From assembly GCA_003171215.1 (NCBI GenBank), contig PMYN01000078.1, positions 2,452-38,869 of the forward strand: 36,418 nucleotides of DNA. The letters are read 5' to 3'. The position numbers and the translations under genes are program-made. Position 1 is the stretch's first letter. Each line of letters begins with the position of its first letter. The notes under the pieces are model-generated. The model was not told the DNA's origin, did no database searches, and worked only from the letters and a program-made list of their open reading frames with translations. Shown here piece after piece: positions 1 through 36,337 of this stretch. The DNA is from Gemmatimonadota bacterium. GTDB lineage: Bacteria > Gemmatimonadota > Gemmatimonadetes > Gemmatimonadales > Gemmatimonadaceae.

Positions 1-2
1 AG

Positions 3-3000
3 AACGAGCGCTGCGTCTCGAGCCAGTTCTTCAGCGTCGCCGCGCAGTGCAACGCGTCGTTCCAGCCGCTGTTCGATTTTCAATTCGGCGTCAAGACCGG
101 CGGCACCTTCGCCGACCGCGTGCACGTCAACGTGGACTACAACTCCACGCGTGAGTTCGACGCGTCGAACAACATCTCGCTGTACTACGAAGGGAAGAAG
201 GGCGACTGGCTCCAGCGCGTGGACGTGGGCAACGTCACCTTCGCCGTGCCGGTCTCGCGGTACATCACGACGGGAATCCCGCAGGGCAACTATGGAGTCC
301 AGGCGATCGCGCAGTTCGGCTCGCTCACACTCCGCGCGATCGCCGCACAGCAGAAGGGAAACGTGGTCGCCAACAAGGTGTTCACCGTAGGCGGCGGGTC
401 GCAGACGCAAGCCCAGGTCACGCGCGACATCGACGACTACCAGATCGAGGCGCGGCGGTTCTTCTTCACCGTCGATCCGCGAGCGCTCGGCGGATATCCG
501 AACATCGATATCCTCAACAAGGTGCAGATGGGGTCGCTGGCCGCGTCGCTGCCCGATTCGATCCGTCCCGTTCACATCGTGCTGTACCGGCTGCTGATCG
601 GCGGGCAGCCGCCGAATCCCAACGGGCCGCAGTTCCAGCTCATCGGCGATCCGAACTCGCGCCGCGGACAGGTCTACGAGGTGCTGCGCGAGAATGTCGA
701 CTACATCGTCGATCCGTCGCAGTTGTGGGTGAAGCTCACGCAGCCGCTGAACGTGAACAATGAGCGGCTCGTCGTCGCGTACACCGTCCGCGCGGCCGGC
801 GTCGAGACGACCAACACGCGCACCGGCGGCACGCCCGACATGACCTACGTCGCGTCGCGCCCGCAGTACGCGAACCTCCTCTGGGATCCGCAGGTGCAGC
901 CTGGTGACCCTTCGTCGTTCCGCGAGCTGCGCAATGTGTACCGCGTCGGCGGGTCCGATGTGCAACGCGGATCGGTCGGCATCACCATCGTCACCGGCAC
1001 GACGTTTGACCAGGAGAAGCCGGCCGTCGGTATTTCCGCCACCTTCCTCCAGCTCTTCGGCGTCGCCCAGCCGGGAAATCCGGGGTCGTTCGACACCGAC
1101 AACCGCCTCTGGCCGCGGCCGGGAGATCCGGGGTTCAGCATCGCGCCGATTTCCGGCGCCGGCACCGTTTCATCGGCCACCGGCGCGACCGACCAGTTCC
1201 TCGTGTTTCCGTCGCTGCAGCCGTTCGCGCGCGCGGGACTCGCCCAGCCGGCGGGAAATCCCGCGAACGACGCGATCTACACCACGCCCGGTATCTACCT
1301 GTATTCGCCGCAGCATCCGCAGCCGGTCTTTCGCATTCACCTCAGGTACCAGTCCGACGGCAGCGGCGACGGCACCGGCATCACGCTTGGCGCAAACCAG
1401 CTGCGTCCGCTCTCGGAGCGCCTCACGCTCGACGACGGCACGCTGCTCAAGCGCGACGTCGACTACACCATGGACTACGACCTCGGCCGCGTGACGTTCC
1501 TCCACGCGGACACGCTCTTCGCGCAGCCGCGCAACGTGACCGTGCGCTATGAGGAGAATCCGCTGTTCGTCACGGCGCCGACGTCGATCTTCGGACTCGC
1601 CTCGACGCTGCCGCTCAGGTTCGGCGACATCAACTTCATCGCGCTCGGGCAGTCGCAGAACACCTCGTTCACGAGGCCCCCGCTCGGCTACGAGGCGCAG
1701 TCGTCGCTGATCGCCGGCATCAACGGCAACTTCACGTTCAACGCGGACCAGGTCGCGCGCTGGGTCGACAAGCTCCCCGGCGCGAATCCCAACGCGCCCG
1801 CGCGCCTGCGCACGATCTTCGAGTTCGCGACGAGCCGGCCGCAGATCGGCGGATCGTCGCAGGCATACCTCGAGACGTTCGAGGGAGACGGCGGCATCAC
1901 GGTCCCGCTGTCAGACCCGAACTGGTACCTCTCGAGCCAGCCGGCGCTCGGCAACAGGCTCACGGGGCTGATCGGCGGTGCGACAACGCTGGATCTCAAC
2001 CGAGCGTCATCGATGGCGTGGCAGAACAACGGCTTGAATCCCGCCGGCCAGTCCGTGACGTTCACGATTCAGCAGATCGATCCGCTCACCGACATCGTCG
2101 GCGCCGGCCTGCAGCAGCCGGAACCCGTGCTCTGGATGACGCTGTATCCGCTCGGCATCGGCGGCGCGTACAACGACCAGGCGAAGCGCTACCAGTGGCT
2201 CACCCCGGGCGCACCGGCGGGGCGGCGCTGGCGTTCGATTCGCCAGTCGCTCAATACATCCGGCACCGACCTCTCGCACGCACAGAACATCGAGATGTGG
2301 GCGCTCGTCGACACTTCGCTCGCGCGCCGGCAGCACAATCCGGTGCTGGTGATCGACGTCGGCGACATTTCGGAGAACACCGTCGCGGTGGGACCCACGA
2401 ACCTCGTCGTCACGCAGGGGAGCACGGGGCGCGACTCCACGTACAGCGGCCGCGCGATCTACGGGCGCGACACGCTGCAGTCGGAACGCGATCCGTTCTC
2501 GCGCGCGTTCGACCAGTCGAAGAACGACACCGGCCTTCCGGGCGACGTCATCCCGAATCTCGCGTTCACCTCGCCGGATTCTTCGGGCACGATCAGGAAC
2601 TTCAAGATTTGCTCGAAGGGCAATACACAACTGCGCCAGATCGGCGACACGAAGACGAACTGCACCGTGAACAACGGCCGTCTCGACGAATGGGATCTCG
2701 ACGGCGACAACGTGCTCAACTTCGACGCGGCGCAGCGCGAGCAGGAGCGATTGCTGCGCTTTGCCGTGGACCTGAGCGACCCGAAGAGCTATGTGCGCAT
2801 CGGCGGATGCGCGGCGTCTCCCACCGACTCGCTGGGGCTCGCCGGCGAGCGCAAGTGCTGGGTGCTCGTGCGCATCCCGTTCGGCACGCCGCTCGACACC
2901 ATCAGTGGCGGGCCCAACATTCAGCGCGTCCGCACGGTACGCATGACGATGATCTCGGGACCGGCCGCCGACGACAACGAGTTCACGCAGGTGCCCATCG

Positions 3001-5873
3001 CGCGATTCCGCTTCACCGGCGCGAGCTGGCTGAAGCGCTCGCAGCAGTCGCTGGCGGGCGTGGCGGGCGAGCGCACCTCGATCGGCGTCGTCGCCGCGTC
3101 GACGATCGGCACCGCCGACAAGGACTCCACGAGCGGCCTCGTGTACGACTCGCCGCCGGGCGTGGTCGACCAGTCCGAGCAGAAGCTCAGCGGCCTCGAG
3201 AACCAGCGCATCGTCATCAACGAGCAGTCGATGCGCCTCACGACGACGGCGCTCGCGAGATACGAACGCGCCGAGGCCTATTACCGGTTCCCCGAGGGAG
3301 CGAAGAACTTCATGCAGTACGGCCAGCTGCGCGCGTGGGCTCGCGGCCGCGGAAACGGGTGGGGCCAGAACGGCGACCTGCAGTTCTATGTGAAGATCGG
3401 CCGGGACGACAACAACTTCTATTTCTATCGCAGTCCGGTGAATTCGGGTCAGGGGCAGGCCGCCTGGCTCCCCGAGGTCGTCGTGGACTTCGCACAGCTC
3501 AACGCCCTGCGACTCAAGCTGCAGAACGCGTACCTGCAGAACAGCAAGGACACGCTCTCATGCACGGGAGTGGACTCGGCGCTCATCGCGCGAAGCGTGC
3601 TGCCGGCCGGGCAGATCTCGCGCCGCTTCGCGGCGTGCGGCAACGGCTACATGGTGTATACGGTCGATCCGGGCGTCAGCGCGCCGAACCTCCGCGCCGT
3701 GCAGGAACTCGCGGTCGGCATCATCCGCGTGGACAGCTCCGGACTCGGCGCCACGCGCATCATGCCGGGCGACACGCTCGAGGTATGGGTGGACGACATC
3801 CGGCTCGCGAACAGCGTGAACACGCCGGGGTACGCCGGGCAGGTGGGCGTCGATCTCGAGACCGATCTCGGATCGTTCCACGCGAACCTATCGCATCGCG
3901 ACGCGAACTTCCGGCAGCTCGGCGAGGCGGCATCGAACGTCGCGGATGATGACGTCGAACTCAGCACGACGGTCCGGCTCGAGCGCTTCTTCGGCCGCGG
4001 CTTCGGATACGCGCTACCGGTGACCGTCACACACTCGACCATCGTGAACACGCCGGAGTACTTGACGAACTCCGACATCCTCGCGCACGGCATCGCCGGC
4101 CTTCGCACGCCCAGGGACGAGGCCACGAGCGTGTCGCTCGGCGTTCGGCGTACGACGCCGCTGCAGGAGGGCTGGATCGCGCCCATCGTGAACAACCTCG
4201 CGCTGACCACATCGATCAACACCGCGACTTCGCAGGACGAGTACTCGACGGCGAGTCATTCGCTGTTCACCGCCGGCCTTGGCTACGCGGTGGGAGGAGG
4301 GGCACAGTTGCAGCCGATGCCCGGCTGGTGGAGCCGCGCGTTCGATGGACTTCCCGCGTGGCTGCAGACGTCCGAGTTCGCGCAGGAAATGAAGAACGCG
4401 CAGCTGCACACGGATCCCGCGGTCTTCCGGCTCAGCAGCATGTACGCGAAAAGCGACGACCGTCGGTCGAGTTTCACCAAGCCGGCGGCGTCGCTCACCG
4501 ACACCGCGTCCATCGTCGCATCGCTCGCAAACTATTGGCGCAATGCCACGGCGCTCGAGCTGCGCCCGTTCGACGCGCTGAGCGCGCGCTGGGAGTTTTC
4601 GTCGCTTCTCGACATGCGCCACTATGGCGACAGCACGCCTGCCGGCGTGGCCGCGACGAACGAAAGGAGCAGCTTTCTTGGCCTCGACGCCGGCCTCGAG
4701 CGCCAGCGATCGATCAACACCGCCGTGAACTTCACGCCGCGGCTGAAGGGATGGCTCCGGCCGCGATTCGACTTCTATTCCGGCTACGCGATGCTGCGCG
4801 ACCCGAACACCACGCAGTTGCTGCACGCGGGCGACAGCACCGCCGCGTACCGGCTTCCCGCGCGCCTCAACGCAATGCAGTCGCTGAACACGGGTGCCGC
4901 GCTCGATCTCGTGCGTGTGGCGAGCGCGTGGACCTCGGATTCCGTCTGGCTGCGGAAGCTCAACAACACGTTGCTCCCCGTCGACTTCAACTACTCCCGC
5001 ACGCTCAACTCGGCGTTCGACGGCACGCCGTACTCGCCGGGACTCGGCTACCAGTTCGGGTTCATCGGGACTCGCGGCTACCTCCTCGATCACGGGTTGC
5101 TCGCGAGCAGCGCGGGAAGCAACACGGCCGTGACGCTCACCGCGGGACTCAAGCTTCCGTACGGCATGACGCTCACGGCGCGCACGCAGCGCATGGCCAC
5201 GCGCAATTGGATGAGTGGCACCGACACGAACCAGACCGTGATCGACGGCGAGCAGGTCACGCTGCCGGATCTCTCGTTGCGCGCGACGTACCATCCGAAG
5301 GCCCTCGCGCAGTACATCACCAGCTTCACCGCCAACGCGCGCTTCGTGCTCACGCATCAGCGATCGGCGGCGCCCAGTATTTCCACGCTGCTTCCCGCCG
5401 ACATTCGCACGAGCCGGGTGATGAGCTATCCGGTGGGTGCGAGCATTGTGTGGAACGACATCGGCAGCCTGACCACGGGCTTCAGCGTGGGCTCGTCGTA
5501 CCGCGTGGATTCGGTTCCCGGGAGCGTCACCGACTCGCACTCGCACGACATCAGCGCCGACGCGTCGCGGTCGTTCAAGCTGCCCGCGGCGTGGCAGATG
5601 AAGAGCGCGCTGCGCACGCGGTTCGGATTCCAGCAGACGACGTCGGTGAGCGACGTTTCGAACGGCCTGGCCGCGGGGCTGCGCAGCCGCCTCGCCGACA
5701 ACGGCCGTCAGGCGATTACGTTGAATGCGGACACCGATATCGCCGAGAACCTCACGTTTTCGCTGCAGAGCGCGCGGATCGTCACGTTCGACAACAATTT
5801 GAATCGCAGGTTCACGCAGATCGTCCTGTCGGCGGTCCTGCAGATCGCGTTCTTCGCGGGGGAGATGAGATGA
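3..5873 (+). CDS. sprA: SprA-family outer-membrane protein (T9SS translocon), 5'-truncated by window edge
   Basis: The reading frame is open from the first full codon of the window to TGA at 5871-5873, so the gene starts upstream and about 1,956 residues are visible. The visible N-terminal part carries the SprA pattern: a VNVDYNSTREFD stretch, then ISLYYEG, VDVGNVTFAVPVS, YGVQAIAQFGSLTLRAIAAQQKG. In Bacteroidetes SprA is the giant 36-strand outer-membrane barrel that forms the type IX secretion conduit; homologues occur across the FCB group. The rest is Thr/Ser/Asn-rich beta-strand sequence with no transmembrane helices, as expected for a barrel. The C-terminal part (about 4,000-5,870) has alternating hydrophobic strands. 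The stop overlaps the start of the next gene by 4 bases (ATGA), so the two are translationally coupled. Family call is firm; a working T9SS here is inferred, because no gld/por genes are in view. Confidence 0.85.
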   Translation, partial: NERCVSSQFFSVAAQCNASFQPLFDFQFGVKTGGTFADRVHVNVDYNSTREFDASNNISLYYEGKKGDWLQRVDVGNVTFAVPVSRYITTGIPQGNYGVQAIAQFGSLTLRAIAAQQKGNVVANKVFTVGGGSQTQAQVTRDIDDYQIEARRFFFTVDPRALGGYPNIDILNKVQMGSLAASLPDSIRPVHIVLYRLLIGGQPPNPNGPQFQLIGDPNSRRGQVYEVLRENVDYIVDPSQLWVKLTQPLNVNNERLVVAYTVRAAGVETTNTRTGGTPDMTYVASRPQYANLLWDPQVQPGDPSSFRELRNVYRVGGSDVQRGSVGITIVTGTTFDQEKPAVGISATFLQLFGVAQPGNPGSFDTDNRLWPRPGDPGFSIAPISGAGTVSSATGATDQFLVFPSLQPFARAGLAQPAGNPANDAIYTTPGIYLYSPQHPQPVFRIHLRYQSDGSGDGTGITLGANQLRPLSERLTLDDGTLLKRDVDYTMDYDLGRVTFLHADTLFAQPRNVTVRYEENPLFVTAPTSIFGLASTLPLRFGDINFIALGQSQNTSFTRPPLGYEAQSSLIAGINGNFTFNADQVARWVDKLPGANPNAPARLRTIFEFATSRPQIGGSSQAYLETFEGDGGITVPLSDPNWYLSSQPALGNRLTGLIGGATTLDLNRASSMAWQNNGLNPAGQSVTFTIQQIDPLTDIVGAGLQQPEPVLWMTLYPLGIGGAYNDQAKRYQWLTPGAPAGRRWRSIRQSLNTSGTDLSHAQNIEMWALVDTSLARRQHNPVLVIDVGDISENTVAVGPTNLVVTQGSTGRDSTYSGRAIYGRDTLQSERDPFSRAFDQSKNDTGLPGDVIPNLAFTSPDSSGTIRNFKICSKGNTQLRQIGDTKTNCTVNNGRLDEWDLDGDNVLNFDAAQREQERLLRFAVDLSDPKSYVRIGGCAASPTDSLGLAGERKCWVLVRIPFGTPLDTISGGPNIQRVRTVRMTMISGPAADDNEFTQVPIARFRFTGASWLKRSQQSLAGVAGERTSIGVVAASTIGTADKDSTSGLVYDSPPGVVDQSEQKLSGLENQRIVINEQSMRLTTTALARYERAEAYYRFPEGAKNFMQYGQLRAWARGRGNGWGQNGDLQFYVKIGRDDNNFYFYRSPVNSGQGQAAWLPEVVVDFAQLNALRLKLQNAYLQNSKDTLSCTGVDSALIARSVLPAGQISRRFAACGNGYMVYTVDPGVSAPNLRAVQELAVGIIRVDSSGLGATRIMPGDTLEVWVDDIRLANSVNTPGYAGQVGVDLETDLGSFHANLSHRDANFRQLGEAASNVADDDVELSTTVRLERFFGRGFGYALPVTVTHSTIVNTPEYLTNSDILAHGIAGLRTPRDEATSVSLGVRRTTPLQEGWIAPIVNNLALTTSINTATSQDEYSTASHSLFTAGLGYAVGGGAQLQPMPGWWSRAFDGLPAWLQTSEFAQEMKNAQLHTDPAVFRLSSMYAKSDDRRSSFTKPAASLTDTASIVASLANYWRNATALELRPFDALSARWEFSSLLDMRHYGDSTPAGVAATNERSSFLGLDAGLERQRSINTAVNFTPRLKGWLRPRFDFYSGYAMLRDPNTTQLLHAGDSTAAYRLPARLNAMQSLNTGAALDLVRVASAWTSDSVWLRKLNNTLLPVDFNYSRTLNSAFDGTPYSPGLGYQFGFIGTRGYLLDHGLLASSAGSNTAVTLTAGLKLPYGMTLTARTQRMATRNWMSGTDTNQTVIDGEQVTLPDLSLRATYHPKALAQYITSFTANARFVLTHQRSAAPSISTLLPADIRTSRVMSYPVGASIVWNDIGSLTTGFSVGSSYRVDSVPGSVTDSHSHDISADASRSFKLPAAWQMKSALRTRFGFQQTTSVSDVSNGLAAGLRSRLADNGRQAITLNADTDIAENLTFSLQSARIVTFDNNLNRRFTQIVLSAVLQIAFFAGEMR

Positions 5874-6826
5874 GTGGACTTCGGATGACCGGGCTTCTCG
5901 CGCTGGCCGCGGTGACCGCGTGCGGCGCGACGAGCGACAAGCCGGCCGCGGCGACTCGGGCGTCGAACGAGTTCAACGCCGACTCGGCGATGAGCTACAT
6001 CCGCCAGCAGCTCGCGTTCGGTCCGCGCGTGCCGGGCACCGAGCCCGCTCGGAAGACCGGCGACTGGATCGTCGCGCACCTGCACCGGACGGCCGACACG
6101 GTGCTCGAGCAGCGATGGACGCACACGCTGGCGAATGGGAAGCCGCTGCCGATGCGGAATATCTTCGCGCGCTTCAAGCCGAACGCGAAGGAGCGCATTC
6201 TCTACATCACGCACTGGGATACGCGACCGGTGGCCGACATGGAGTCCGATCCGGTAAGGGCGGGGATGCCGATCCCGGGTGCGAACGACGGCGCGAGCGG
6301 TGTCGCCTTGCTGCTGGCGGTCTCGGACGCGTTGAAGAAGGCGCCGCCGGGTATGGGCGTCGATCTCCTGTTCGTTGACGGCGAGGACTGGGGCACGTTC
6401 ACGCCGGACGTGGACGTGCTGATCGGCGCGAGCTACTTCGCCCAGCACCTGCCGAGCGCGGATTACCGGCCGCTGTTCGGCGTGCTGTGGGACATGATCG
6501 GCGACGCGGATCTCAACATCTATCAGGAAGTGAACTCGGCGCAGGCGGCGCCCGAGGTGGTGCAGAAGGTGTGGGGGCTCGCCAAGGACATGGGATACGA
6601 GAAGTATTTCATTCCGGAGGCGAAGGAGCCGATCACGGACGATCACGTGCCGTTGATCAAGGCCGGGCTGCGCGTGATCGACGTGATCGACATCGACTAC
6701 GGGCCTCGCAACGCATCAGGGGTCGTCACGACGAGCTATCACCACACGCTCGACGACACGATCGACAAGGTCTCGGCGAAGTCGATGAAGATCGTGGGGG
6801 ACGTGGCGGTGGCGTTGTTGCGGTAG
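5870..6826 (+). CDS. M28-family glutaminyl-peptide cyclotransferase-like lipoprotein
   Basis: A 318-residue protein. The ATG at 5870 overlaps the sprA stop and has a strong ribosome site (GGGGGAG, 5858-5864). A lipoprotein signal is visible: hydrophobic residues 8-17 and lipobox V15-T16-A17-C18. The rest is a single M28 zinc-peptidase fold. HWDTRP at 115-120 and GANDGASGVA at 138-147 supply the first metal ligand (D140). DGEDWG at 170-175 supplies E172 and DDHVPL at 257-262 supplies H259. The D/E/H set and the DDHVPL context match animal-type glutaminyl cyclases (QC), which convert N-terminal Gln to pyroglutamate, better than M28 aminopeptidases, which normally bind two zinc ions. Co-translation with sprA suggests a role in maturing exported proteins in the periplasm. 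An aminopeptidase activity cannot be excluded from sequence alone. Confidence 0.85.
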   Translation: MSGLRMTGLLALAAVTACGATSDKPAAATRASNEFNADSAMSYIRQQLAFGPRVPGTEPARKTGDWIVAHLHRTADTVLEQRWTHTLANGKPLPMRNIFARFKPNAKERILYITHWDTRPVADMESDPVRAGMPIPGANDGASGVALLLAVSDALKKAPPGMGVDLLFVDGEDWGTFTPDVDVLIGASYFAQHLPSADYRPLFGVLWDMIGDADLNIYQEVNSAQAAPEVVQKVWGLAKDMGYEKYFIPEAKEPITDDHVPLIKAGLRVIDVIDIDYGPRNASGVVTTSYHHTLDDTIDKVSAKSMKIVGDVAVALLR

Positions 6827-6872: not shown

Positions 6873-6895
6873 TCGAACGATGCGAATTGTCGAAC
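6863..6895. repeat. imperfect tandem repeat across the intI start codon
   Basis: GATGCGAACGTCGAAC (6863-6878) is followed directly by GATGCGAATTGTCGAAC (6879-6895). The integrase ATG (6880) lies inside the second copy. No clear ribosome site precedes it, so the exact integrase start is not certain. Confidence 0.5.
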
Positions 6896-7887
6896 CACCC
6901 CATTCGGTTGTGGCTGCGGCCGGTCCGGTCTCGTTGATCGGACAAGTGCGTCGGCGGATGCGAGCGCGGCATCTCAGTCCTCGCACTGAAGAAGCGTATG
7001 TGATGTGGATCAAGCGATTCGTTCGGTTTAGCGGAACGAAACACCCGTCGCTGCTTGGCGAGCCGGAAGTGACCGCGTTCTTGACGCATCTCGCCGTGAC
7101 GGAGCGCGTGGCGGCGTCGACCCAATCGCAGGCGCTCGCGGCGATCTTGTTTCTTTATCGTGATGTGTTGCGAGCTCCCCTGTCGTGGCTGCACTCCATC
7201 GTGCGGAGCAAGCGACCGGCGCGGTTGCCGACGGTCCTGACACGCGATGACGCGCGCGCAGTGATCGCAGTGATGCGCGGCGTTCCAAGGTTGGCAGCGC
7301 TGGTGATGTACGGAGCCGGGCTGCGCTTGATGGAAGCGCTCACGCTGCGCGTGAAGGATCTCGACTTGGATCGGCTCGTGGTGACTGTGCGAAGCGGGAA
7401 GGGAGGGCGCGACCGCGTTTCAGTGTTGCCTCGGAGCGCCGTGATGGCCCTCGGAGTTCATCTCGAGGAAATGCGCGAGCAGCACCGCAATGATCTTCGA
7501 AGCGGTGCCGGGTTTGTCGAGCTGCCCGACGCTCTGGCGCGCAAGATTCCGGCGGCCCGGCGCGCGTGGGAGTGGCAGTGGGTCTTTCCCGCCACGCGTA
7601 CGTACAAGGATTCCAAAACGGGTGAGATGCGGCGACATCATCTTCATGAAACCGTTCTCCAGCGCGCCGTGACCGAGGCCGGCCACCGTGCGCGAATCGC
7701 CAAGCGCGTCACCTGTCATGCGTTCCGTCACTCGTTCGCGACGCACCTCCTCGAGGACGGCTACGACATCCGAACGATTCAGGAACTGATGGGGCATCGT
7801 GACGTCAGCACGACGATGATCTACACGCACGTCCTGAATCGCGGCGGTCGCGTGGTCACCAGTCCCGCCGACAAGTTCGGCTCCTGA
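6880..7887 (+). CDS. intI: integron integrase (tyrosine recombinase, IntI family)
   Basis: 335 residues. The N-terminal SAM-like DNA-binding domain (about 17-105) has the IntI pattern VRRRMRARHLSPRTEEAYV. The catalytic domain carries the full tyrosine-recombinase set: R149 (GAGLRLMEAL), K174 (SGKGGRDR), H280 and R283 (HAFRHSFATHLL), H306 (MGHRD) and Y315 (MIYTHV). The IntI-specific insertion that separates integron integrases from XerC/XerD is present at about 219-237 (KIPAARRAWEWQWVFPA). The enzyme recombines folded single-stranded attC sites with double-stranded attI. No frameshift or missing catalytic residue is seen, so it should be active. Its orientation is unusual: the cassettes lie beyond its 3' end and read the same way, instead of diverging from its 5' end. 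No ribosome site is obvious before ATG 6880, and no recognised LexA box was found. Confidence 0.93.
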   Translation: MRIVEPPHSVVAAAGPVSLIGQVRRRMRARHLSPRTEEAYVMWIKRFVRFSGTKHPSLLGEPEVTAFLTHLAVTERVAASTQSQALAAILFLYRDVLRAPLSWLHSIVRSKRPARLPTVLTRDDARAVIAVMRGVPRLAALVMYGAGLRLMEALTLRVKDLDLDRLVVTVRSGKGGRDRVSVLPRSAVMALGVHLEEMREQHRNDLRSGAGFVELPDALARKIPAARRAWEWQWVFPATRTYKDSKTGEMRRHHLHETVLQRAVTEAGHRARIAKRVTCHAFRHSFATHLLEDGYDIRTIQELMGHRDVSTTMIYTHVLNRGGRVVTSPADKFGS

Positions 7888-10674: not shown

Positions 10675-13266
10675 TCAGATACCCAGTCCCGTTTGACAGT
10701 GCATTCCCTTGTGGCCCAGTTCGTTGGTGACGGTGCAGCTGACGATGAACGACTGGTTCGACAGGCCAATCCAGATCCCCGCTCCGGTCGAGGCGTGCCA
10801 TCCGCCGGGCGAACCCGAGTTCACGTACACGCGGCCGGCCTCGGCGGTACCCAGTACTCCGGCACGCATCGGCACCATGAGTGCGAAACTCATCAGTGGA
10901 ATCCGCAGTTCGGAACTCGCGTAGATCGCCGCATCTCCGGCGAGGCGATCCGGATCCATGTTGCGAAGCGTCCGGCTGCCGCCGATGAACGCCGCGTCGA
11001 AGAACGGAAAGGTTCCGAAGACTTTCGTCGCGCCGGCTTGCCACACGAACACGGGGTCCGTTGGAATCGAAAACGTCATGAACGAACCGACATGGGCGCT
11101 GACCACCTCGTACGCGCTGGTGACGTCCATCATCACCGGATAGTACGTCCCTTCGATATCGAGCAGGAACCGCCGTTGCGGCGACTTCGGATTGTCCGTC
11201 AACTCGTGATGCAGTCCGAGCTGCACCCCGGCTTGGCCGAAGCTGCCGACGCCGTAGGGACGAGTGCGCGAAACGAGTCGATTCAGTGCGCTGTCGGTGC
11301 GCGTGTACCGGAGAATCGGACCGAGTGACAAGTCCGTCGTCTCGCCGATTGCATACGCGAGCGCAGGATGAAACCGCCACTGCCGTTGCCGCACGTCGAA
11401 GAATCCCGACGCGGAATCCGGCGTGTCATTGCCCAGGCCGTGGAACGAGAGGACCGCGAACTGTGAGACGGACGCCGTCAGCTCCGTGTGAAATGGCGTT
11501 CCCTCCCATCGCTTGTCCGCAACCGCGTGCAGGGCGGATCCTTCGAGACCAAAGGCGTACTCGCCCACGAGTCCCGCCATGCTCGAATACGGCCGGTTCC
11601 GGAATCCGTACGTGTATCGCTCGACGCCGATCGTCGGCGTGACTCCCAGCACCAGTTCGGATCTGAGTCCCACGACTGGACTGAGCTTGGAGCCTCGATC
11701 CAGGCTCGGCGGGACGACTTTGCCGCGCGACTCGATCCAGGGCAGCCGGTCGAACAGCGTGTCCTTCCCATATGTCACTCCTGACACCGTTCCGGTGTCG
11801 AGGAGCTCCGTTGGATTCCCGCGATCGTCCACTCGTGAGGAATCGGTCAGCCAGTTGATGCCGTTGCCTCCGATGATCTTCACGGAAATGCTCTCTCGCA
11901 CGTCGCCCCGCACGATCGACGTGTCGTTGCCGCCGTGGAGATAGACGCGGATCTCCCGGGTCTCGAGGAAATCGAAACGACGCGCGAAGAACGGGTCGTC
12001 GCCGGCAGTCTCGAGCCTCACGTCGACGAGACCGTTCGACTCGCGCGTCACCGTCAGACGATCTCCCGCGTCGGTGCCGTGGACGTCGACGATGCCGGAG
12101 AGGTACAGGTAGAAAGTCGTCGCGGCCTTCCTGAGATGTTCTCGGCGAAGCCTGAGCGTGGCGGCAAGCGCCGGCGCCCACCAGTGGTACTCCGCCGGCA
12201 GCGCGCGGACGGCGCTGTCGATCACCGCATCGGTGAGTCTGCCGGTCAGATCGTTCGCGATGGAATCCCACACCGGGCGTTCGAGCCCACTCAACAACCG
12301 GCGGTCCATTTCCAGGCTGTTGTATGTGAGACCGGGAATATTGATGTTGCCGTCGAACTTCAGGAGATTCGGCACGGCGAACCGCGCCGCCGCGAGGAAC
12401 GCGCCGCGATACGCGACGAACACCTGGTCTCGGTCGCGGGGGATCGGTTCCCACGGCGACGCGTGACCCTTCTGCATGCGCGCCCACTTCCACTGGCCCG
12501 GATGACGGTCGTTATCGTTGAGGAAGAGGTCCATCAGTCGCGCCTTGAGCAGGGCGCGCGCGTCGACGCGCTGGCGCCCGTCGCTGTCGAGCAGTTTCCG
12601 CAGGGAGTCGCTGTCGATGATCTCCAACGCGCCGGCGAAACCTTCGCCATGCGCCGTCTTGCTGGGCGAGAGCTCGATCATGCCGAGCCGGCCCGCGAAC
12701 TCGGCCGAATACTCTCCGAGGATCGAGTCGTGAGGCATGACCACGAGCTGCGGCGTCGCATGGAGCACGCCGGCTGCCTCGAGCAGAGAGGCGGCGACGA
12801 GCGCGGCGGCCGGGTGTTCGGAACTGACCTGGTCCTTGAAGACTTCCATCGCCAGCGCGCCGGCCATGCCCGGCGGAAGGTGAGCCCGCTTGTCGACTGA
12901 CCGGAACGCGTACTCCTCGCCGTCCTTGGCGACGAAACGCAGCGATTCCGTCTGCATGCCGCCGCCCTTCTTCTTCGGCTCGAGACCGCCGGCGAACCGG
13001 CGCAGGTCGAGCACCGGCACGCGAATGGGCGTCGTCCAGAATACGCGATAGTTCTCGCCGAGCAGGAAATCGTGGAATCCGTTTGCTGCGTACTCCGGCC
13101 CCGGTGCGATCGTCACGCTGTCGGCGCCGGATACCGTCGGCGGCGGCGGGACGACGGCTTGCGCCGCGATCGGCGCGGGGAACGCGGCGCAAAGAGCGCC
13201 TGCGGCGGCCGCACACACCACCGGCGAGAACCGGGTGAAGTCGATCAAACGCTTGAACGTGCCCAC
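10675..13266 (-). CDS. outer-membrane BamA/D15-type barrel protein with a kinase-like segment
   Basis: 863 residues from a GTG start (13266), preceded by AAGGGA and 4 bases after the upstream stop. A Sec signal peptide ends near residue 35-37 (PIAAQA). Residues about 105-290 resemble an atypical-kinase fold: an FRSVDK strand with a lysine, LNDNDRHPGQWKW (D253-R254-H255) and PIPRDRDQVF (D278, D280). The DRH then D-x-D order recalls CotH/Fam20-type kinases. Residues about 400-520 are beta-rich. About 560-863 show amphipathic strands and GGSRTLRNMDPDRLAGDAAIYASSELRIPL, the BamA/TamA-type strand-and-loop signature, so the C-terminal part should be an outer-membrane barrel. I recall the same two regions, fused to a metallophosphoesterase, in Bacteroidetes. 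The role is unknown; a surface phosphorylation/dephosphorylation system is an inference. Confidence 0.7.
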   Translation of the reverse strand: MGTFKRLIDFTRFSPVVCAAAAGALCAAFPAPIAAQAVVPPPPTVSGADSVTIAPGPEYAANGFHDFLLGENYRVFWTTPIRVPVLDLRRFAGGLEPKKKGGGMQTESLRFVAKDGEEYAFRSVDKRAHLPPGMAGALAMEVFKDQVSSEHPAAALVAASLLEAAGVLHATPQLVVMPHDSILGEYSAEFAGRLGMIELSPSKTAHGEGFAGALEIIDSDSLRKLLDSDGRQRVDARALLKARLMDLFLNDNDRHPGQWKWARMQKGHASPWEPIPRDRDQVFVAYRGAFLAAARFAVPNLLKFDGNINIPGLTYNSLEMDRRLLSGLERPVWDSIANDLTGRLTDAVIDSAVRALPAEYHWWAPALAATLRLRREHLRKAATTFYLYLSGIVDVHGTDAGDRLTVTRESNGLVDVRLETAGDDPFFARRFDFLETREIRVYLHGGNDTSIVRGDVRESISVKIIGGNGINWLTDSSRVDDRGNPTELLDTGTVSGVTYGKDTLFDRLPWIESRGKVVPPSLDRGSKLSPVVGLRSELVLGVTPTIGVERYTYGFRNRPYSSMAGLVGEYAFGLEGSALHAVADKRWEGTPFHTELTASVSQFAVLSFHGLGNDTPDSASGFFDVRQRQWRFHPALAYAIGETTDLSLGPILRYTRTDSALNRLVSRTRPYGVGSFGQAGVQLGLHHELTDNPKSPQRRFLLDIEGTYYPVMMDVTSAYEVVSAHVGSFMTFSIPTDPVFVWQAGATKVFGTFPFFDAAFIGGSRTLRNMDPDRLAGDAAIYASSELRIPLMSFALMVPMRAGVLGTAEAGRVYVNSGSPGGWHASTGAGIWIGLSNQSFIVSCTVTNELGHKGMHCQTGLGI

Positions 13267-13270
13267 GCTG

Positions 13271-13900
13271 TCAGTTCCCTTTTCTTGCGATCCCGAATTT
13301 CACCGGAAATTGCGAGACGATGCCGTCGGTGAGCATGTCGGCCATCATGAGAACGTGTTTCTCGATGGCGTCGAAGTCCTGGATGTCGGCGGTGTAGTCC
13401 TTCTTCAGCCGATGCTCCGCCTCGGAACGCGTCTGGTCGCAATGGGTGTACATCGCGGTGCGCACCCGCGCCGTCGCCCAATTGTTGGGGTTGGCGTGAT
13501 GCAGGAACTCGGCAATCTCATCCGCGTTGGCGCGCCACTTGGTATTGACCGAGTCGGTCTTGGCGACGTTGCCGGACTTCGCCGCCGCGATCAGCTCGCC
13601 GGCGGTGAGAATGTGCTCCTTCAGCAGACCGGTCAGTTTTCCACCCGATTCCTCGCCATAGTAGCGCGCCATCGCGGCGCCGATATCCGTCTGGTTGAGC
13701 AGGAGCCGCTGCGTGGTCGCGTCCTTGTCAGGCAGGCCGGCGGCCACGCTGACGATGTACTGGCGGGTCCATGTGGCATGCTCCGACCACAGCTTCCGCA
13801 TGGCGTCATGGAGTTCGGTTCGCGACTGCTGCGCGCCCGCGACCATGGGCCCAATCAGGAACGCGGCGATCACCGACAGGCGACGCGCGACATGGGACAT
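13271..13900 (-). CDS. exported protein of unknown function (LLxEHI helical family)
   Basis: 209 residues. The ATG at 13900 has a strong ribosome site (GGAGG) and is preferred over an in-frame start at 13939. The signal peptide covers residues 1-23 (AAFLIGPMVAGA), with QQ next, giving Gln at +1. The mature part is all-helical with a repeated theme: HATWTRQYI, RLLLNQTDIG, YYGEESGGKLTGLLKEHI and FLHHANPNNW. I recall this pattern from a family, common in Bacillus and soil bacteria, that is often mislabelled 'acetylglutamate kinase' or 'glycosyltransferase' in databases; no enzyme motif is visible. It is the first gene of the operon with the kinase-like barrel protein and the phosphoesterase, so it may be a periplasmic partner of that system. 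Confidence 0.65.
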   Translation of the reverse strand: MSHVARRLSVIAAFLIGPMVAGAQQSRTELHDAMRKLWSEHATWTRQYIVSVAAGLPDKDATTQRLLLNQTDIGAAMARYYGEESGGKLTGLLKEHILTAGELIAAAKSGNVAKTDSVNTKWRANADEIAEFLHHANPNNWATARVRTAMYTHCDQTRSEAEHRLKKDYTADIQDFDAIEKHVLMMADMLTDGIVSQFPVKFGIARKGN

Positions 13901-17197: not shown

Positions 17198-17992
17198 GTG
17201 ACATCGCAATCGTCTTGCCCCCTCTTCTCCATGCCGGCCGCATTCGTGGTGAGCCTTGTCCTTTCGGCATGCGGAAGCGGCGAGCGCCATCAGTCTGCTG
17301 CGTCCTACGAGGTAACAGGTCGTTTCCCGCATGATCCAACGGCCTACACGCAGGGTCTCGTGTGGGCTGACGGTATTCTCTTCGAGAGCACGGGGCTGTA
17401 CGGCCAGTCAGAGTTGCGACGCGTCGATCTTCGCTCGGGTCGAGTACTGGCGTCGCGACCGCTCACAGCGGATCGCTTTGGCGAAGGACTCGCCTTGCTG
17501 AACGGCCGCCTGTATCAGCTCACGTGGAAGGAAGGCGTGGCCTATACCTACGATGCAGCCACGCTCGCGCCTCGCGATTCATTTCATTATGCCGGACAAG
17601 GATGGGGACTCGCCACCGATGGGACGTCGCTGATCATGAGTGATGGTTCCGATTCCCTTCGTGTCCTGTCACCGGCGACCTTTCATGTGCAACGCGTGGT
17701 GCACGTTCGGTACAACGGCGCGCCTTTGTACCAGCTGAATGAGTTGGAGTATGTCAACGGCGAGGTGCTCGCCAATGTCTACCAGTCCAACTGGGTCATG
17801 CGGATCGATCCTGCTACAGGCACCGTGCGTGAGGCGATCGACTTTGCCGACCTGTATCCGGAGCGCCCTGCAACGGCCGAAGTCATGAATGGCATCGCGC
17901 TCGCGCCGGACGGTCATCAGCTGTTGCTGACGGGTAAGCTGTGGCCCGTGCTGTTTCAGGTGCGACTTGGCGCGCCACTCAGCCATCGCTGA
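17198..17992 (+). CDS. glutaminyl-peptide cyclotransferase, plant type, lipoprotein
   Basis: 264 residues from GTG 17198; ATG 17231 (residue 12) is an alternative start. Hydrophobic residues 14-24 end in lipobox L22-S23-A24-C25, so the protein should be lipid-anchored. The mature part is the five-bladed propeller of the plant-type QC family: FPHDPTAYTQGLVW, LFESTGLYGQSELRRVDL, FGEGLALLNGRLYQLTW, GWGLATDG, LNELEYVNGEVLANV and MNGIALAPDG with LLTGKLWPVLFQV. These cover the conserved E-S-T-G, Q-L-T-W, N-E-L-E and T-G-K-x-W positions. It forms pyroglutamate from N-terminal Gln and is unrelated in fold to the M28-type enzyme at 5870. Its 3' end lies 11 bases from the convergent cyclase gene. Confidence 0.88.
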   Translation: MTSQSSCPLFSMPAAFVVSLVLSACGSGERHQSAASYEVTGRFPHDPTAYTQGLVWADGILFESTGLYGQSELRRVDLRSGRVLASRPLTADRFGEGLALLNGRLYQLTWKEGVAYTYDAATLAPRDSFHYAGQGWGLATDGTSLIMSDGSDSLRVLSPATFHVQRVVHVRYNGAPLYQLNELEYVNGEVLANVYQSNWVMRIDPATGTVREAIDFADLYPERPATAEVMNGIALAPDGHQLLLTGKLWPVLFQVRLGAPLSHR

Positions 17993-25133: not shown

Positions 25134-27239
25134 GTGTACTCTGCACTTCGCGCCGCCGCGGCCGCAGCACTGTTCGCGCTCCCGCTCGCCGCACAGCAGG
25201 ACGATCCCGCGCTGATCGCGAAGGCCAAGGCGATCCATGCCAGGGCGATCAAGATCGATACGCATGTCGACATCGATCCCTCGATGATGACCGACGTGAA
25301 GCCCAACTACGTCACCGGCCACGCGCATCAGGTCGATCTCCCGAAGATGCGAAACAGCGGCGTCGACGCCGTCTTCTTCAGCATCTTCGTCGGCCAGGCG
25401 CAGGACTTCTCCGACAGCGGCTACGCGAAAGCCAGGGCGGGCGACGTCGCGAAGTTCGAGGCCGTCCACTATCTGGCCGAAAAGCTCGCACCTGATCAAA
25501 TCGAAATCGCCTACACGGCGGCCGACGTCCGCCGCATTCGCGCGAAGGGGAAGCTCGTTGCGCTCATGGGCGTCGAGAACGGCTACGGCATAGGGACGGA
25601 CATCACGAACGTCAAGAAGTTCTACGACTACGGCGCGCGCTACCTCTCGCTCGCGCACAACGGGCACAACCAGCTCTCCGATTCGAACACCGGCGAATCC
25701 GACGATGTCTGGAAGTGGCACGGCGTGAGCCCGCTCGGCAAGCAGGTCGTCGCCGAGGCGAACAAGTACGGAATCATGCTCGACATTTCGCACCCGTCGA
25801 AAGAGTCGAACATGTGGGTGATGGCGAACAGCAAGGCGCCCGTGATCGCGTCGCACTCCGGCGTCCGCGCCTTGTGCAAGACGGCGTCGCGCGATCTCGA
25901 CGACGAACAGCTTCTTGCCCTCAAGAAGAACGGCGGCGTCATGCAGGCCGTCGCATTCGCCGGGTTCGTGAAGTGCGATCCGCCGTCGGCCGAGCGCACG
26001 GCGGCGCTCACGGCGCTCGCCGCTCAATACGGAATCCCCGCCGCGCAGGCCGGACGGTTGGGCGGCGGTGGCGGCGGGCGCGGCGCGGCGATTCCCAGCG
26101 GCGTCTGTGGCATCGGGTACGATGCGAACGCGGCGCCGCGCGGCGGCGGTGGCCGTGGCGCGGGCCGCGGCGGCCGCGGCAACCCGCTCGCCGACATGGA
26201 TCCGGTGAAGCGCGCCGAGTTCCAGGCGAAGCTCGACGCGCTCGACGTGAAATACCCGGTGCCGGCGCGCGCGAACGTCCAGGATTTCGTGAACCACATC
26301 GACTATGCCGTCAAACTCATCGGCGTCGACCACGTCGGCATCAGCTCCGATTTCGACGGCGGCGGCGGCATCGACGGCTACAACTGCACGAGTGAGGCGA
26401 TCAACGTCACGATCGAACTCGTCCGTCGCGGCTATACGGAGGAGCAGATCATCAAGATGTGGGGCGGCAACGTGCTGCGCGTGATGGAGGAGGTCGAGAA
26501 GGCGGCGAAGAAGGCGCAGGGAGTGAAGTCCACCGACGACGCGCTTCCCGAGACCGGCACGTTTTCCATCATCGCGTACGATACCGCGACCGGAGAATGG
26601 GGCGGTGCAGTGCAATCGCGGGTCTTCTCGGTCGGCAACGGCGTGCTCTCGGCGGAGGCCGGCGTGGGCGTCGTGGCGACGCAGGCGGTCGTCGACGTGA
26701 GTTACGGCCCGCAGGCCCTCGCGTTGCTGCGGCAGGGAAAGTCCGCCGGCGAAGTGGTGAAGTATGTGTGGGAGCACGATCCCGATCCCGACACCGCGCG
26801 CTGGGCGAAGACGGGGCGGCAATTCGCGGTGGTCGACGGCAAGGGAAATGTCGCGGCGTACACCGGGCCCACCGCGCCGACGGCAGCGGGTGACAGGCAG
26901 GGCGCGCACGTGACCGCGCAGGGAAACACGCTGGCCGACAAGTCGGTTCCGGATTCGATGGTCGCGGCGTTCAATCGCGCGAGCGGCCATCTCGCGTTCC
27001 GTCTGCTGGCCGGGATCGAGGCGGGTCAGGCGGCGGGCGGCGACAAACGCGGCAAGCAGTCGGCCGCGATGGTCATCGTGAAGAAGTGCGGCGGGGTATG
27101 GCTGCACAACGACGTGGTGCTCAAGCTGCAGGTGGACGACAGTCCGGAACCAATCGTCGAACTTCGCCGGCTCGTGGAAAAGGCGCCGCTGCCGCCGCGG
27201 GGCGTGACGAACGCGCAGAACGATCCGGCGTGCCGGTGA
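25134..27239 (+). CDS. M19 membrane-dipeptidase-like enzyme fused to DUF1028
   Basis: 701 residues from GTG 25134, chosen because GAGG lies 5 bases upstream and a Sec signal peptide follows directly (ALFALPLAA, then QQ). Residues about 30-470 are an M19 metallopeptidase: DTHVDID (H44, D46), VALMGVENGYG (bridging Glu), LAHNGHNQLSDS, MLDISHPS, VIASHSGVRALC and HVGISSDFDGG. Inside this domain, at 26058-26187, is a Gly/Arg-rich insertion (runs of GGGGGG and GRGAGRGGRG) with one Cys. Residues about 485-690 form DUF1028 (TFSIIAYDTATGEWGGAVQS and GVGVVATQAVVDVSYGPQAL), an Ntn-hydrolase-like fold. The product is exported and should cleave dipeptides or related amides. The DUF1028 role is unknown. Confidence 0.85.
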   Translation: MYSALRAAAAAALFALPLAAQQDDPALIAKAKAIHARAIKIDTHVDIDPSMMTDVKPNYVTGHAHQVDLPKMRNSGVDAVFFSIFVGQAQDFSDSGYAKARAGDVAKFEAVHYLAEKLAPDQIEIAYTAADVRRIRAKGKLVALMGVENGYGIGTDITNVKKFYDYGARYLSLAHNGHNQLSDSNTGESDDVWKWHGVSPLGKQVVAEANKYGIMLDISHPSKESNMWVMANSKAPVIASHSGVRALCKTASRDLDDEQLLALKKNGGVMQAVAFAGFVKCDPPSAERTAALTALAAQYGIPAAQAGRLGGGGGGRGAAIPSGVCGIGYDANAAPRGGGGRGAGRGGRGNPLADMDPVKRAEFQAKLDALDVKYPVPARANVQDFVNHIDYAVKLIGVDHVGISSDFDGGGGIDGYNCTSEAINVTIELVRRGYTEEQIIKMWGGNVLRVMEEVEKAAKKAQGVKSTDDALPETGTFSIIAYDTATGEWGGAVQSRVFSVGNGVLSAEAGVGVVATQAVVDVSYGPQALALLRQGKSAGEVVKYVWEHDPDPDTARWAKTGRQFAVVDGKGNVAAYTGPTAPTAAGDRQGAHVTAQGNTLADKSVPDSMVAAFNRASGHLAFRLLAGIEAGQAAGGDKRGKQSAAMVIVKKCGGVWLHNDVVLKLQVDDSPEPIVELRRLVEKAPLPPRGVTNAQNDPACR

Positions 27240-32829: not shown

Positions 32830-35250
32830 TCAGGTGGCGTAACCGAGCGCTCGATAGCCGGTTTGGCGCTTCGCGGCCATCCGAGCCAGCACCGGCACAG
32901 ACCCGTCTACATAGTCGTGCACCACGACTTCATGCTTATCCTGATAGTCTCGATGGAGCCGTCCGACGTATTGTGCCAGTGTTCCTTTCCACGCGATCGG
33001 CATCGTAAGGAAGAGCGTATCGAGGCGGGGGTCGTCGAACCCTTCGCCGAGATACCGACCCGTCGCGAGAATAATTCGCGTGGCTGATTCGTCAGAATGA
33101 AGCAGTGCGTCCGCATCGCGGCGTTCTTTCGCATTCATTCCACCGCGCAGGACCACGATTCGAGAACAGAACGGTTCGAACGCCTGCCGCAATATGTCAA
33201 GGTGATCGCGCCGTTCGGTCAGTACCAACGGTGTCCGGCCGGCGGCGAGCGCGGCGCGCACGTCCTCGATAATTCTTGCGTTGCGGGCGTCGTCATGTGC
33301 CACGCGCGCAGCGATAGCGGGCATTGAAGCCTTCTCGACGCCGTCGCCTGCGGGCAGTCGAAACGCGGTCTCGTGGAAGTTTACGCGGTGTACGAAGCCT
33401 CGACGAACCGCTTGGGATTTCGGATCTGTGCGATATCGAACCGGCCCGCACTGCATGAAGATGATGGGATGGTGCCCATCGCGCCGCGCGACGGTGGCGG
33501 AAAGGCCGAGCACGTAGCGCGCCTTGGATCGACGGGCCACCAGTTCGAAGCTGGCAGCCGAGAGGTGGTGGCATTCGTCCACGATCAACTGGCCATAGCC
33601 AGCGAGTAGATCGGACACTTCTCCTTTGCGCACGAGGCTTTGGATCACGGCCACGTCGATGCGCCCTGTCGGTTTCTTGCGGCCGCCGCCGATCGTGCCG
33701 ATGTCACCTGGCTCGACCGACAAAAATGTCTTAAGACGTTCGACCCACTGCGCCAGCAGTTCGCGTCGATGTACAAGAATGAGAGTGCTGCATGCGCGAT
33801 GCGCTGTGAGTGCGGCCGCGACGACGGTCTTCCCGAAGGCGGTCGTCGCCGCCAGCACGCCGAAGTCCTTCGCCGCGATCGCGTTGAATGCGGCGATCTG
33901 TTCCTCGCGCAATGTGCCGAGGAACTGCACGGAGAGTGGCGTTCCGGCTTCTCGCCGGTCATCAATCCGGGATTCGATACCATGTGATCGGAGTAGCTCA
34001 ACCGCCTCGTCCAGACATCCTCGCGGCAGGGCGACGTGACGCGGGTGAAGCATGGCGCAGGATACGATGCGGGGCTTGCCGAACGTGGACAGGCGCATCG
34101 CCTGCGCCCGATAGAACTCGGGATTCTGAAAGGCGGCAACACGGGTGAGTTGCGCGACTATTCCTGGCGACAGGCTCGTCCGATCGATGTAGACTTCGTC
34201 GGCCAGCGTCAGATCCACGGCGCTCGGGTGCGGCTCCGCAACGGCCCTGACGCGAGGCCGGCGCGACGGAGACATGAGCCACGGTTGGTCTGCGTCCTCA
34301 TCTTCGACGGGCATTCTCACGCCAAACACGCGACCGCTGAGTTCCGCCTCGCGCACGAGATGAGTCACCGCATCGCGTGATACCCGCGGCAACGCGGACA
34401 AGAATGCCCATTGATCCTCGTGCGGCTGCAGTTGATCGTCGATGAACACGCTATTGCCGCGTTCGCGCGCCGCGCGTTGCAGCGGGAGCGCGATGAGATT
34501 CCCAAACCCGCCGATGGGCAACGTGTCTTGGCTCGGGAAGAGCCGGTCGTAGGATTCGAAGCCGATTTCCGGGCGGCGTTCCATCGTGTCGGTTATCAGC
34601 AACGCCCCAAGCTGCCGCGCCTCTCGCGCCGGAATGGCCTCTGCGAAGAAGATCCACACGTGCCCACCTTCACCAGACCGCGATCGCTCGAGCGCCGCGC
34701 TGACTCCCTTCTGCTGGCACGTTTCAAAAAACGCGAGCGCATCGGCACTCCAGTGCTCGCCGTCGAAGTCCGCCGCAAGAAACCAACACGTCTCGTCGTG
34801 CAGGAGCGGATAGACACCGGCAACGAACATCGTCCGTGACGATTTCGAGCGGTCGAAGCCGCGTAGATGATTTCCGATCATATCGTCGGCGACAGGAACA
34901 AACGCCTGATTCGAACATTCCCCACATTTGACTTGGGGCTTGTTGCAAATACCTCGAATCCACTCGTTGGCACACGCCGGCGCATAGCCGGACCGCGCGG
35001 TCTTCGTGTTCTCCCATCGGAGCGGGAAGACATCGTGGCGGCCGGCGAAGAGGCGTCGGAACAGAGTGACTTTTGCCGCGGCCCTTGACTCCGCTGTCAC
35101 CAGACCGGTTTCACTCGGCGGTGGCGTGGAAACCGGTGTGGCTCGTTCGATGCGAACGAGTGTGTTTGCGAGATCCGCGCGCTGGCGATCCAACTCGGCC
35201 AGCTGCGCACGGATCCGTTCGGCTTCGGTTTCTGTAGCTCGGTCGGGCAT
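32830..35250 (-). CDS. TOTE-type archaeo-eukaryotic primase fused to SF2 helicase
   Basis: 806 residues from ATG 35250. Residues 5-40 are a coiled coil. The primase part (about 62-290) begins LFRRLFAGRHDVFPLRWE with Cys residues C93, C102, C109 and C112. It carries the AEP catalytic D-x-D (AADFDGEHW, D161/D163), SGEGGHVW (H197) and the GGFGNLIALPLQ strand. This matches the TOTE conflict-system primase family. The helicase part follows: Walker A ATTAFGKT (468-475), DECHH (558-562), LGLSAT (581-586), and VGRLHR near 780. All key residues are intact. In the family, primase-helicases act in genome-conflict modules with nucleases. No nuclease partner is visible here, but a toxin-antitoxin pair lies directly upstream on the same strand. 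It is convergent with pilC. Confidence 0.85.
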   Translation of the reverse strand: MPDRATETEAERIRAQLAELDRQRADLANTLVRIERATPVSTPPPSETGLVTAESRAAAKVTLFRRLFAGRHDVFPLRWENTKTARSGYAPACANEWIRGICNKPQVKCGECSNQAFVPVADDMIGNHLRGFDRSKSSRTMFVAGVYPLLHDETCWFLAADFDGEHWSADALAFFETCQQKGVSAALERSRSGEGGHVWIFFAEAIPAREARQLGALLITDTMERRPEIGFESYDRLFPSQDTLPIGGFGNLIALPLQRAARERGNSVFIDDQLQPHEDQWAFLSALPRVSRDAVTHLVREAELSGRVFGVRMPVEDEDADQPWLMSPSRRPRVRAVAEPHPSAVDLTLADEVYIDRTSLSPGIVAQLTRVAAFQNPEFYRAQAMRLSTFGKPRIVSCAMLHPRHVALPRGCLDEAVELLRSHGIESRIDDRREAGTPLSVQFLGTLREEQIAAFNAIAAKDFGVLAATTAFGKTVVAAALTAHRACSTLILVHRRELLAQWVERLKTFLSVEPGDIGTIGGGRKKPTGRIDVAVIQSLVRKGEVSDLLAGYGQLIVDECHHLSAASFELVARRSKARYVLGLSATVARRDGHHPIIFMQCGPVRYRTDPKSQAVRRGFVHRVNFHETAFRLPAGDGVEKASMPAIAARVAHDDARNARIIEDVRAALAAGRTPLVLTERRDHLDILRQAFEPFCSRIVVLRGGMNAKERRDADALLHSDESATRIILATGRYLGEGFDDPRLDTLFLTMPIAWKGTLAQYVGRLHRDYQDKHEVVVHDYVDGSVPVLARMAAKRQTGYRALGYAT

Positions 35251-35321: not shown

Positions 35322-35879
35322 TTACGGTCGTCGCTTCGGCGCTGCGCGAAAAACGCGCGGAGCCTTGGCCGCCGCTTCCGTGCCCTGCGCGAGCAGCGTG
35401 TCCCAATCTGTCGGCGGATTGCCGTTGGCGAGCATCGTGCCGAAGACCGCGTAGGCGTCAGTGGAGCTGCCGTACGTGCGCAGCGTGTCCGTGTCGTTGA
35501 TCCACGCATAGACGATCACACACGCCACGCTGTCGAACCGATAGAAGAGCCGGTAGCGTCCGTTGCCTGTCTTACCTCGGAACCATTCGCGGTGACCGCC
35601 GGGGATCGTCCCGCCATGCCGGTACTGCGCGGCTCCCGGGTCCTGCGGAATCTTATCGAACATCAAGTCGTACACGTGGGCGAGCAGCTTGCGGTTCGGT
35701 CCTGGGAGCGCCGGTGGCGCCGGTTCGCGTTCCGCTGCTTCCGTTAAGCGCGTCAACTGCCCCACGAGCAGCGGGTGCGGGAGCAGCGTGTACCCGTGCG
35801 CGAGAATCCCCAGCGCGAGCGACGGGCTGGCGACCGCGGCCCTACGCGCTCGATGCTTGCCTTTGCGAGGCTTGGTCAG
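35322..35879 (-). CDS. yhaV: YhaV-family toxin (RelE-like endoribonuclease), probable CTG start
   Basis: The C-terminal two thirds match YhaV: KIPQDPGAAQYRHGGTI, HREWFRGKTGNGRYRLFYRFD, VIVYAWINDTDTLRTYGSSTDAYAVFGTML and PPTDWDTLLAQ. YhaV cleaves mRNA in a translation-dependent way. From GTG 35765 the protein would be 147 residues, but family-like sequence continues upstream (HGYTLLPHPLLVGQL). In that frame there is no ATG, GTG or TTG before an in-frame TGA. CTG at 35879-35877 overlaps the antitoxin stop as CTGA and would give 185 residues beginning with a basic stretch (TKPRKGKHRARR). That coupling is why I place the start there; GTG 35765 remains possible. The gene is followed 71 bases later by the primase-helicase on the same strand. 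Confidence 0.85.
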   Translation of the reverse strand: MTKPRKGKHRARRAAVASPSLALGILAHGYTLLPHPLLVGQLTRLTEAAEREPAPPALPGPNRKLLAHVYDLMFDKIPQDPGAAQYRHGGTIPGGHREWFRGKTGNGRYRLFYRFDSVACVIVYAWINDTDTLRTYGSSTDAYAVFGTMLANGNPPTDWDTLLAQGTEAAAKAPRVFRAAPKRRP

Positions 35880-36199: not shown

Positions 36200-36221
36200 C
36201 GTGGCTCCTGGCAACGGGTTG

Positions 36222-36267: not shown

Positions 36268-36337
36268 CCTGCCCCGCATCCGTCACGACACCGGATACCG
36301 CGGGTCCGACGTTCGCTGGATTCGACGGCCTTTCCTA

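Follow-up and report, generated by a model that had tools for sequence, protein, structure and literature searches.

The DNA analysed here (the window) is a stretch of 36,418 nucleotides from a member of the Gemmatimonadaceae (GenBank assembly GCA_003171215.1, contig PMYN01000078.1, positions 2,452 to 38,869 of the forward strand), which corresponds to C96:2452-38869 of our genome G000 (4.14 Mb in 162 contigs). It opens within sprA, the gene for the outer-membrane translocon of the type IX secretion system (T9SS), whose stop codon overlaps the start of a gene for a homologue of type II glutaminyl cyclases (QCs), and farther downstream it carries a second QC gene of the unrelated type I. In Bacteroidetes, exported proteins cut by signal peptidase I often begin with a Gln that is cyclised by a QC, the so-called Q-rule, which has hitherto been called exclusive to that group. 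No report of the Q-rule or of an sprA–QC pair in Gemmatimonadota was found in the open-access literature, which does not prove that none exists. The features of the sprA–QC junction and of the type II QC homologue are as follows.

3-5873, plus strand: sprA, encoding the T9SS outer-membrane translocon, truncated at its 5' end by the window edge (TIGR04189 score 676 bits, cut-off 200; PF14349, 28 bits)
5858-5864, plus strand: GGGGGAG, 5 nt ahead of the QC ATG and within the 3' end of sprA, which we take to be a Shine-Dalgarno-like site
5870-5873, plus strand: ATGA, where the QC gene start overlaps the sprA stop (read from the sequence; recurs in relatives)
5870-6826, plus strand: type II QC homologue, an M28-family lipoprotein of 318 amino acids (PF04389, 101 bits; bacteroidal QCs in the PDB)
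5912-5923, plus strand: lipobox VTAC with the predicted lipidation residue C18 (Cys invariant in two family alignments)
6287-6289, plus strand: D140, a likely zinc ligand (alignment with the QC of Porphyromonas gingivalis, PgQC; invariant in both family alignments)
6383-6388, plus strand: E172, the predicted catalytic Glu, and D173, a likely zinc ligand that is Asp as in bacteroidal QCs (alignment)
6740-6745, plus strand: H291, at the position of PgQC Trp298, and H292, a likely zinc ligand (alignment)

The sprA stop codon (TGA, 5871-5873) and the ATG at 5870 that opens the 318-residue frame (5870-6826) share the four nucleotides ATGA, as an earlier reading of this DNA made from its letters alone (the sequence-only reading) had reported. 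Its description of the M28 protein as a lipoprotein also holds, the lipobox ending at C18. A phmmer search of PDB sequences placed bacteroidal QCs at the top (6qro, 6qql, 7cje and 3tc8, E about 1e-59), the renaming of 3tc8 as a QC having been proposed in PMC7948796. An AlphaFold model of the window protein, built with a 37-row family alignment (pLDDT 92.3, pTM 0.88), matched by fold, in this order, bacteroidal QCs, the QCs of Fimbriiglobus and of an Acidobacteriales bacterium, and animal QCs, with ranks 1-9 all occupied by bacteroidal QCs or by entries up for renaming as QCs according to PMC7948796. The type II QCs of an Acidobacteriales bacterium and of Fimbriiglobus ruber (7d18, 7d1b) have the same fold and family and likewise lie outside Bacteroidota, although their identity to the window QC in the structural match is 30-33%.

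The likeness to PgQC (PG2157), a lipoprotein QC of the same family, extends to the predicted active site. The zinc ligands of PgQC are Asp149, Asp183 and His299 (PMC7948796), and the one-zinc Asp/Asp/His site with a catalytic Glu of type II QCs, including Asp as third zinc ligand, is matched by alignment in the window protein. D140, E172, D173 and H292 do not vary in either of the two family alignments (22 and 37 rows). H259 is also invariant in both and forms part of a conserved DDH motif. The sequence-only reading had put forward D140, E172 and H259 as the active-site set; these residues are present and conserved, but H259 is probably not a member of the site, since D173 and H292 fit the PgQC alignment, and the more likely assignment is D140, D173 and H292 as zinc ligands with E172 as the catalytic residue. 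G000 contains 28 M28-family places in 4.1 Mb, and the motif pattern was matched in 8 of them. Among these eight scored loci the combination of D-G with E-D occurs in the window protein only, the remainder having D-N or D-D with E-E (six loci) or D-S/E-P (one locus).

The residue at the first mature position (+1) was counted in leaders predicted from 20-kb stretches of 15 Gemmatimonadota genomes rather than from whole proteomes, with ∼436 kb from G000. Besides G000, the sample comprised five genomes with type II QC only and sprA, three with type II QC only and no sprA, and four plus two with type I QC only. The gene caller and the leader predictor were both home-made, the latter being a model of the n-, h- and c-regions that is blind to residues -2 and +1. 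An earlier signal-peptide score, which misplaced many sites ahead of an obvious A-Q (the hyphen marks the cut) and gave 17/67 for G000, was replaced after that result was known. The gene caller fitted AT-rich DNA poorly (139 Prevotella genes in 450 kb), and the control counts given here follow its correction.

Of the 231 leaders from the 15 genomes, 92 (40%) had Gln as the predicted +1 residue, 13.6-fold above other proteins. In the G000 sample the count was 25/50 (50%) against a background of 2.8%, an excess that the sequence-only reading had anticipated genome-wide. The peak sits precisely at +1, as in Bacteroidetes, while positions +4 to +12 average 3-5%. Of 159 leaders that contain the motif [AVS]xA, 64 had Gln directly after it, compared with 474 of 16,847 motif sites in other proteins. 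Asn was found at +1 once and Glu three times in the 231 leaders (both 0.2-fold), and their scarcity speaks against a mere preference for polar or amide residues. The bias was seen in genomes with type II QC only, whether sprA was present (23/61) or absent (22/51), and in genomes with type I QC only (19/55 in the four of family f1 and 3/14 in the two of family f5). A separate leader count from 80 named loci (see below), excluded from the 231, gave 32/89. Among the controls, Gln occupied +1 in 14/35 leaders of Prevotella, 14/19 of Persicobacter and 0/25 of E. coli. In Bacteroidetes, +1 Gln exceeds 48% of signal peptidase I substrates in 332 of 334 species (PMC5837995); the same model returned 14/35 and 14/19 for the two Bacteroidota controls, so the Gemmatimonadota fraction is approximate.

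Three Sec leaders within the window had been singled out as carrying Gln at or next to +1. They are real, and for two of them the predictor places Gln at +1:

13271-13900, minus strand: exported protein, leader AGA-QQ (leader model)
25134-27239, plus strand: exported M19 peptidase/DUF1028 protein, leader LAA-QQ (leader model)
10675-13266, minus strand: exported protein, IAA-QA; the model cuts after AQA, two residues further (leader model)

The pairing of sprA with the type II QC gene is conserved in related genomes. Adjacency was judged by coordinates (matches to the sprA profile and to QC on the same strand and <1.9 kb apart). In 56 genomes that have both genes, the two are adjacent in 38, near each other in one (3.5 kb), on different contigs in 15, some perhaps due to contig breaks, and far apart on one contig in two; the adjacency pointed out in the sequence-only reading is therefore not confined to this strain. 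By family, the pair is adjacent in 18/20 genomes of f1, 15/18 of f2, 2/2 of f3, 2/2 of f4 and 1/1 of f8, and in 0/8 of f5 and 0/5 of f9, all five f9 genomes that have both genes carrying them on separate contigs. The 80 named loci (the best 80 QC relatives in named genomes, titled Gemmatimonadota bar one 'Bacterium HR33') have sprA upstream of QC in 53 cases; the other 27 comprise 13 with 10 kb of upstream DNA but no sprA and 14 with less upstream DNA. At 45 of the 53 loci the QC frame offers a candidate start codon whose overlap with the sprA stop is exactly 4 nt. In the gene maps drawn for six loci, sprA and QC come after divergent lptF/lptG-like permease genes and before pilus-type ATPase and platform genes, the neighbour names resting partly on similarity to annotated genes. 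At three sprA-less loci (L196, L255 and L261) QC stands alone between the same flanks, from which it follows that the sprA–QC pair is old and that QC can outlive sprA. Apart from the difference of phylum, this overlap with sprA sets Gemmatimonadota apart from the Bacteroidetes system; the QC gene of P. gingivalis comes first in an operon of three genes, the others being PG_2158 and hemG (PMC10653852).

Across 101 Gemmatimonadota genomes, type II QC (accepted at E up to 1e-20) was found in 69, sprA in 78 and type I QC in 40 (two weak). Type II alone occurs in 55 genomes, type I alone in 26, both in 14 (two of the type I matches being weak) and neither in 6, at least one QC being kept in 95/101. 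The numbers with both or neither (14 and 6) are lower than the 27.3 and 19.3 expected if the two types were independent, with a Fisher test value of 7.6e-9 by genome, which overstates the case because the genomes are related, and of 0.042 by genus. In Bacteroidetes, too, two unrelated types of QC seldom occur together, being found in 574 and 507 species and jointly in 63 (PMC5837995). A profile recheck of the six QC-less genomes (G009, G034, G035, G089, G093 and G096) yielded at most 50 bits, compared with 518 in G057; the same recheck, made on G019 alone of the 26 type I-only genomes, yielded 42 bits. sprA is absent from 13 of the 69 genomes with type II QC. Type II QC is absent from 22 of the 78 genomes with sprA, and 18 of these 22 carry the unrelated type I QC.

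Both QC types occur together in the window, the second at the following position:

17198-17992, plus strand: type I QC (beta-propeller family), alternative start 17231 (PF05096, 298.8 bits; papaya and Xanthomonas QCs)

This protein matches the type I QCs of papaya (2faw) and of the Xanthomonas type (3mbr), the fold of which is unrelated to that of type II QCs. Aligned with the papaya enzyme, it retains the catalytic Gln, Glu, Asn and Lys motifs (for the residue roles see PMC5837995). The codon composition of its gene differs (GC3 0.68 versus 0.90), and none of the five same-genus genomes sampled has a type I QC. The gene lies within a ∼20-kb segment that spans from the type II QC gene to the pilus-type genes (from 28283). 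This segment is missing from three mapped relatives (L196, L255 and L261), in which ∼1 kb separates QC from the pilus-type genes. The type I QC of the window was probably acquired. The segment opens, directly after the type II QC gene, with an integron integrase (6880-7887, plus strand; TIGR02249, 425 bits), and no Rfam match to an integron cassette array was found in 6500-28500. Beyond the segment, the window contains a TOTE-type primase-helicase protein and a YhaV/PrlF toxin-antitoxin pair (32830-35250, minus strand, and 35322-36286, minus strand).

The type IX machinery itself resembles known systems in the presence of SprA (Sov; TIGR04189) and PorV-family proteins, but differs from them in that almost no recognised C-terminal-domain cargo is found outside family f9. 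Possible T9SSs have been mentioned for Gemmatimonadetes (PMC11285876). G000 has one weak match to the tail profile TIGR04183, genomes with the adjacent pair have 0-5 tail proteins and f9 genomes have 11-33 each, a profile count that may miss divergent T9SS tails. The GldL profile matched 0/101 genomes, the control genomes being equally silent. Family f9 is a sister lineage within the phylum, and PorV-family matches number 5-19 in each of its genomes G001, G003, G005, G007, G009 and G011. The other families with sprA, at 0-5 tails, have a translocon for which scarcely any cargo is recognised. The single tail proteins of f2 (for example G044:C2, about 1048918-1050337) belong to a frame of ∼1300 amino acids that may encode a PorU-like sortase and lies beside a PorV-family gene. 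SprA N-termini were counted in the named loci, that of G000 lying beyond the window. Gln occupies the predicted +1 in 22/36, and this is the most conserved mature position (20/30 better-scored N-termini, the next best position reaching 10/30). Judged by these N-termini, SprA looks like one QC client among many.

We propose that the M28 protein is a type II QC that faces the periplasm and is anchored by its lipid. Signal peptidase I would cut many exported proteins so as to leave Gln first, and the QC would convert this Gln to pyroglutamate, probably protecting the N-terminus against aminopeptidases, as has been reported in P. gingivalis, in which QC is essential and T9SS parts and cargo are also QC clients (37/43; PMC10653852). 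Such capping would be a general modification of exported proteins in Gemmatimonadota rather than a sorting step of the T9SS. The sprA–QC pair would be old and probably translationally coupled, with SprA as one client, and QC may persist after sprA is lost or may be replaced or joined by the unrelated type I QC, as in G000. We consider this explanation, taken as a whole, to be probable, and on the Gln counts and gene content the Q-rule very probably operates in Gemmatimonadota. The sequence-only reading had also suggested Q-rule processing in this lineage, genetically tied to SprA. The Gln bias, the QC-type enzyme and the conserved gene pair support that suggestion in part; the tie to T9SS export is not supported, 13/69 QC genomes being without sprA. 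As far as this evidence goes, the tie between sprA and QC is one of gene order plus one client and not of shared function. A more far-reaching version is that there is a phylum-wide need for capping, whereby selection maintains at least one cyclase, the two unrelated enzymes interchange, and QC is coupled with sprA because the SprA barrel needs a capped N-terminus; this we regard as possible but doubtful.

Several observations weigh against general capping by the type II QC. Gln is also frequent at +1 in proteobacterial replicons (S. meliloti pSymB 8/22, Cupriavidus 4/6, Paracoccus 3/10); these were counts of Gln alone, so that the bias by itself is no proof of cyclisation. The leaders are from loci L282-L284 and L292 (pSymB), L288-L289 (Cupriavidus) and L290-L291 (Paracoccus). 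pSymB had been pooled with E. coli as a negative control and was dropped as such, being itself rich in +1 Gln. Some Gemmatimonadota genomes are also low in +1 Gln (G039 0/6, G058 1/3, G080 2/12, G017 2/11). The proteobacterial counts would suit a preference of signal peptidase I or Sec for +1 Gln that is unrelated to cyclisation, the QC acting on few proteins, and so would the continuum of Q-values described outside Bacteroidetes by Bochtler et al. 2018 (PMC5837995). However, the residues closest to Gln, Asn and Glu, show a five-fold depletion at +1, E. coli shows no such Gln, and 95/101 genomes have one or both of two unrelated QC families that substitute for each other, all of which makes a preference of this kind unlikely. 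A further point against capping concerns the enzyme. The alignment replaces PgQC Trp298 and Phe294 by H291 and V285 in the window protein, and this pair is common to PgQC and animal QCs and differs in aminopeptidases (PMC7948796). His occupies the Trp298 position in 58 of the 80 named loci and Trp in 3, with 19 unscored by the pattern; Trp is kept in three f2 rows (L051, L056 and L057), and most Gemmatimonadaceae seen have His, unlike PgQC. The pair is an accessory hallmark, which PMC7948796 does not state to be needed for activity. Since it is not matched, we call the window protein a QC homologue, which on sequence and fold it is, and not an established cyclase. It might instead be an aminopeptidase, there being many peptidases among the annotated M28 families and its weak NCBIfam matches being peptidases. 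Yet D-G after the zinc Asp and Asp as third ligand are as in bacteroidal QCs and unlike the scored paralogues, the top sequence and fold matches are QCs, and +1 Gln persists in genomes with type II QC only, so that we hold an aminopeptidase to be very unlikely.

A dedicated link, in which the QC acts on SprA or the T9SS cargo and is coupled to sprA for this purpose, would accord with the conservation of the pair and its overlap and with the conserved N-terminal Gln of SprA. Genomes with QC and no sprA nevertheless have +1 Gln as commonly (22/51) as those with both genes (23/61), 22/78 sprA genomes lack type II QC, and f5 and f9 lack the adjacency although f9 is rich in tail proteins, while the genomes with the adjacent pair are tail-poor. 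These findings argue against a T9SS-specific role, and a cargo link as the main role of QC was rejected because QC is kept without sprA and +1 Gln is equal there. Bochtler et al. 2018 also argue against control of type IX secretion by QC (PMC5837995). We consider a dedicated link to be hardly likely at all, and prefer general capping with SprA as one client.

If general capping is correct, the Q-rule pathway extends to a second phylum with the same interchangeable pair of enzymes. Gemmatimonadota would then offer a series of natural experiments, comprising genomes that have QC without sprA, that have QC of type I or type II or of both types, or that have neither (six of 101). Such genomes could be used to ask whether capping protects exported proteins generally or serves the outer-membrane translocon, and the present evidence favours general protection over service to the translocon.

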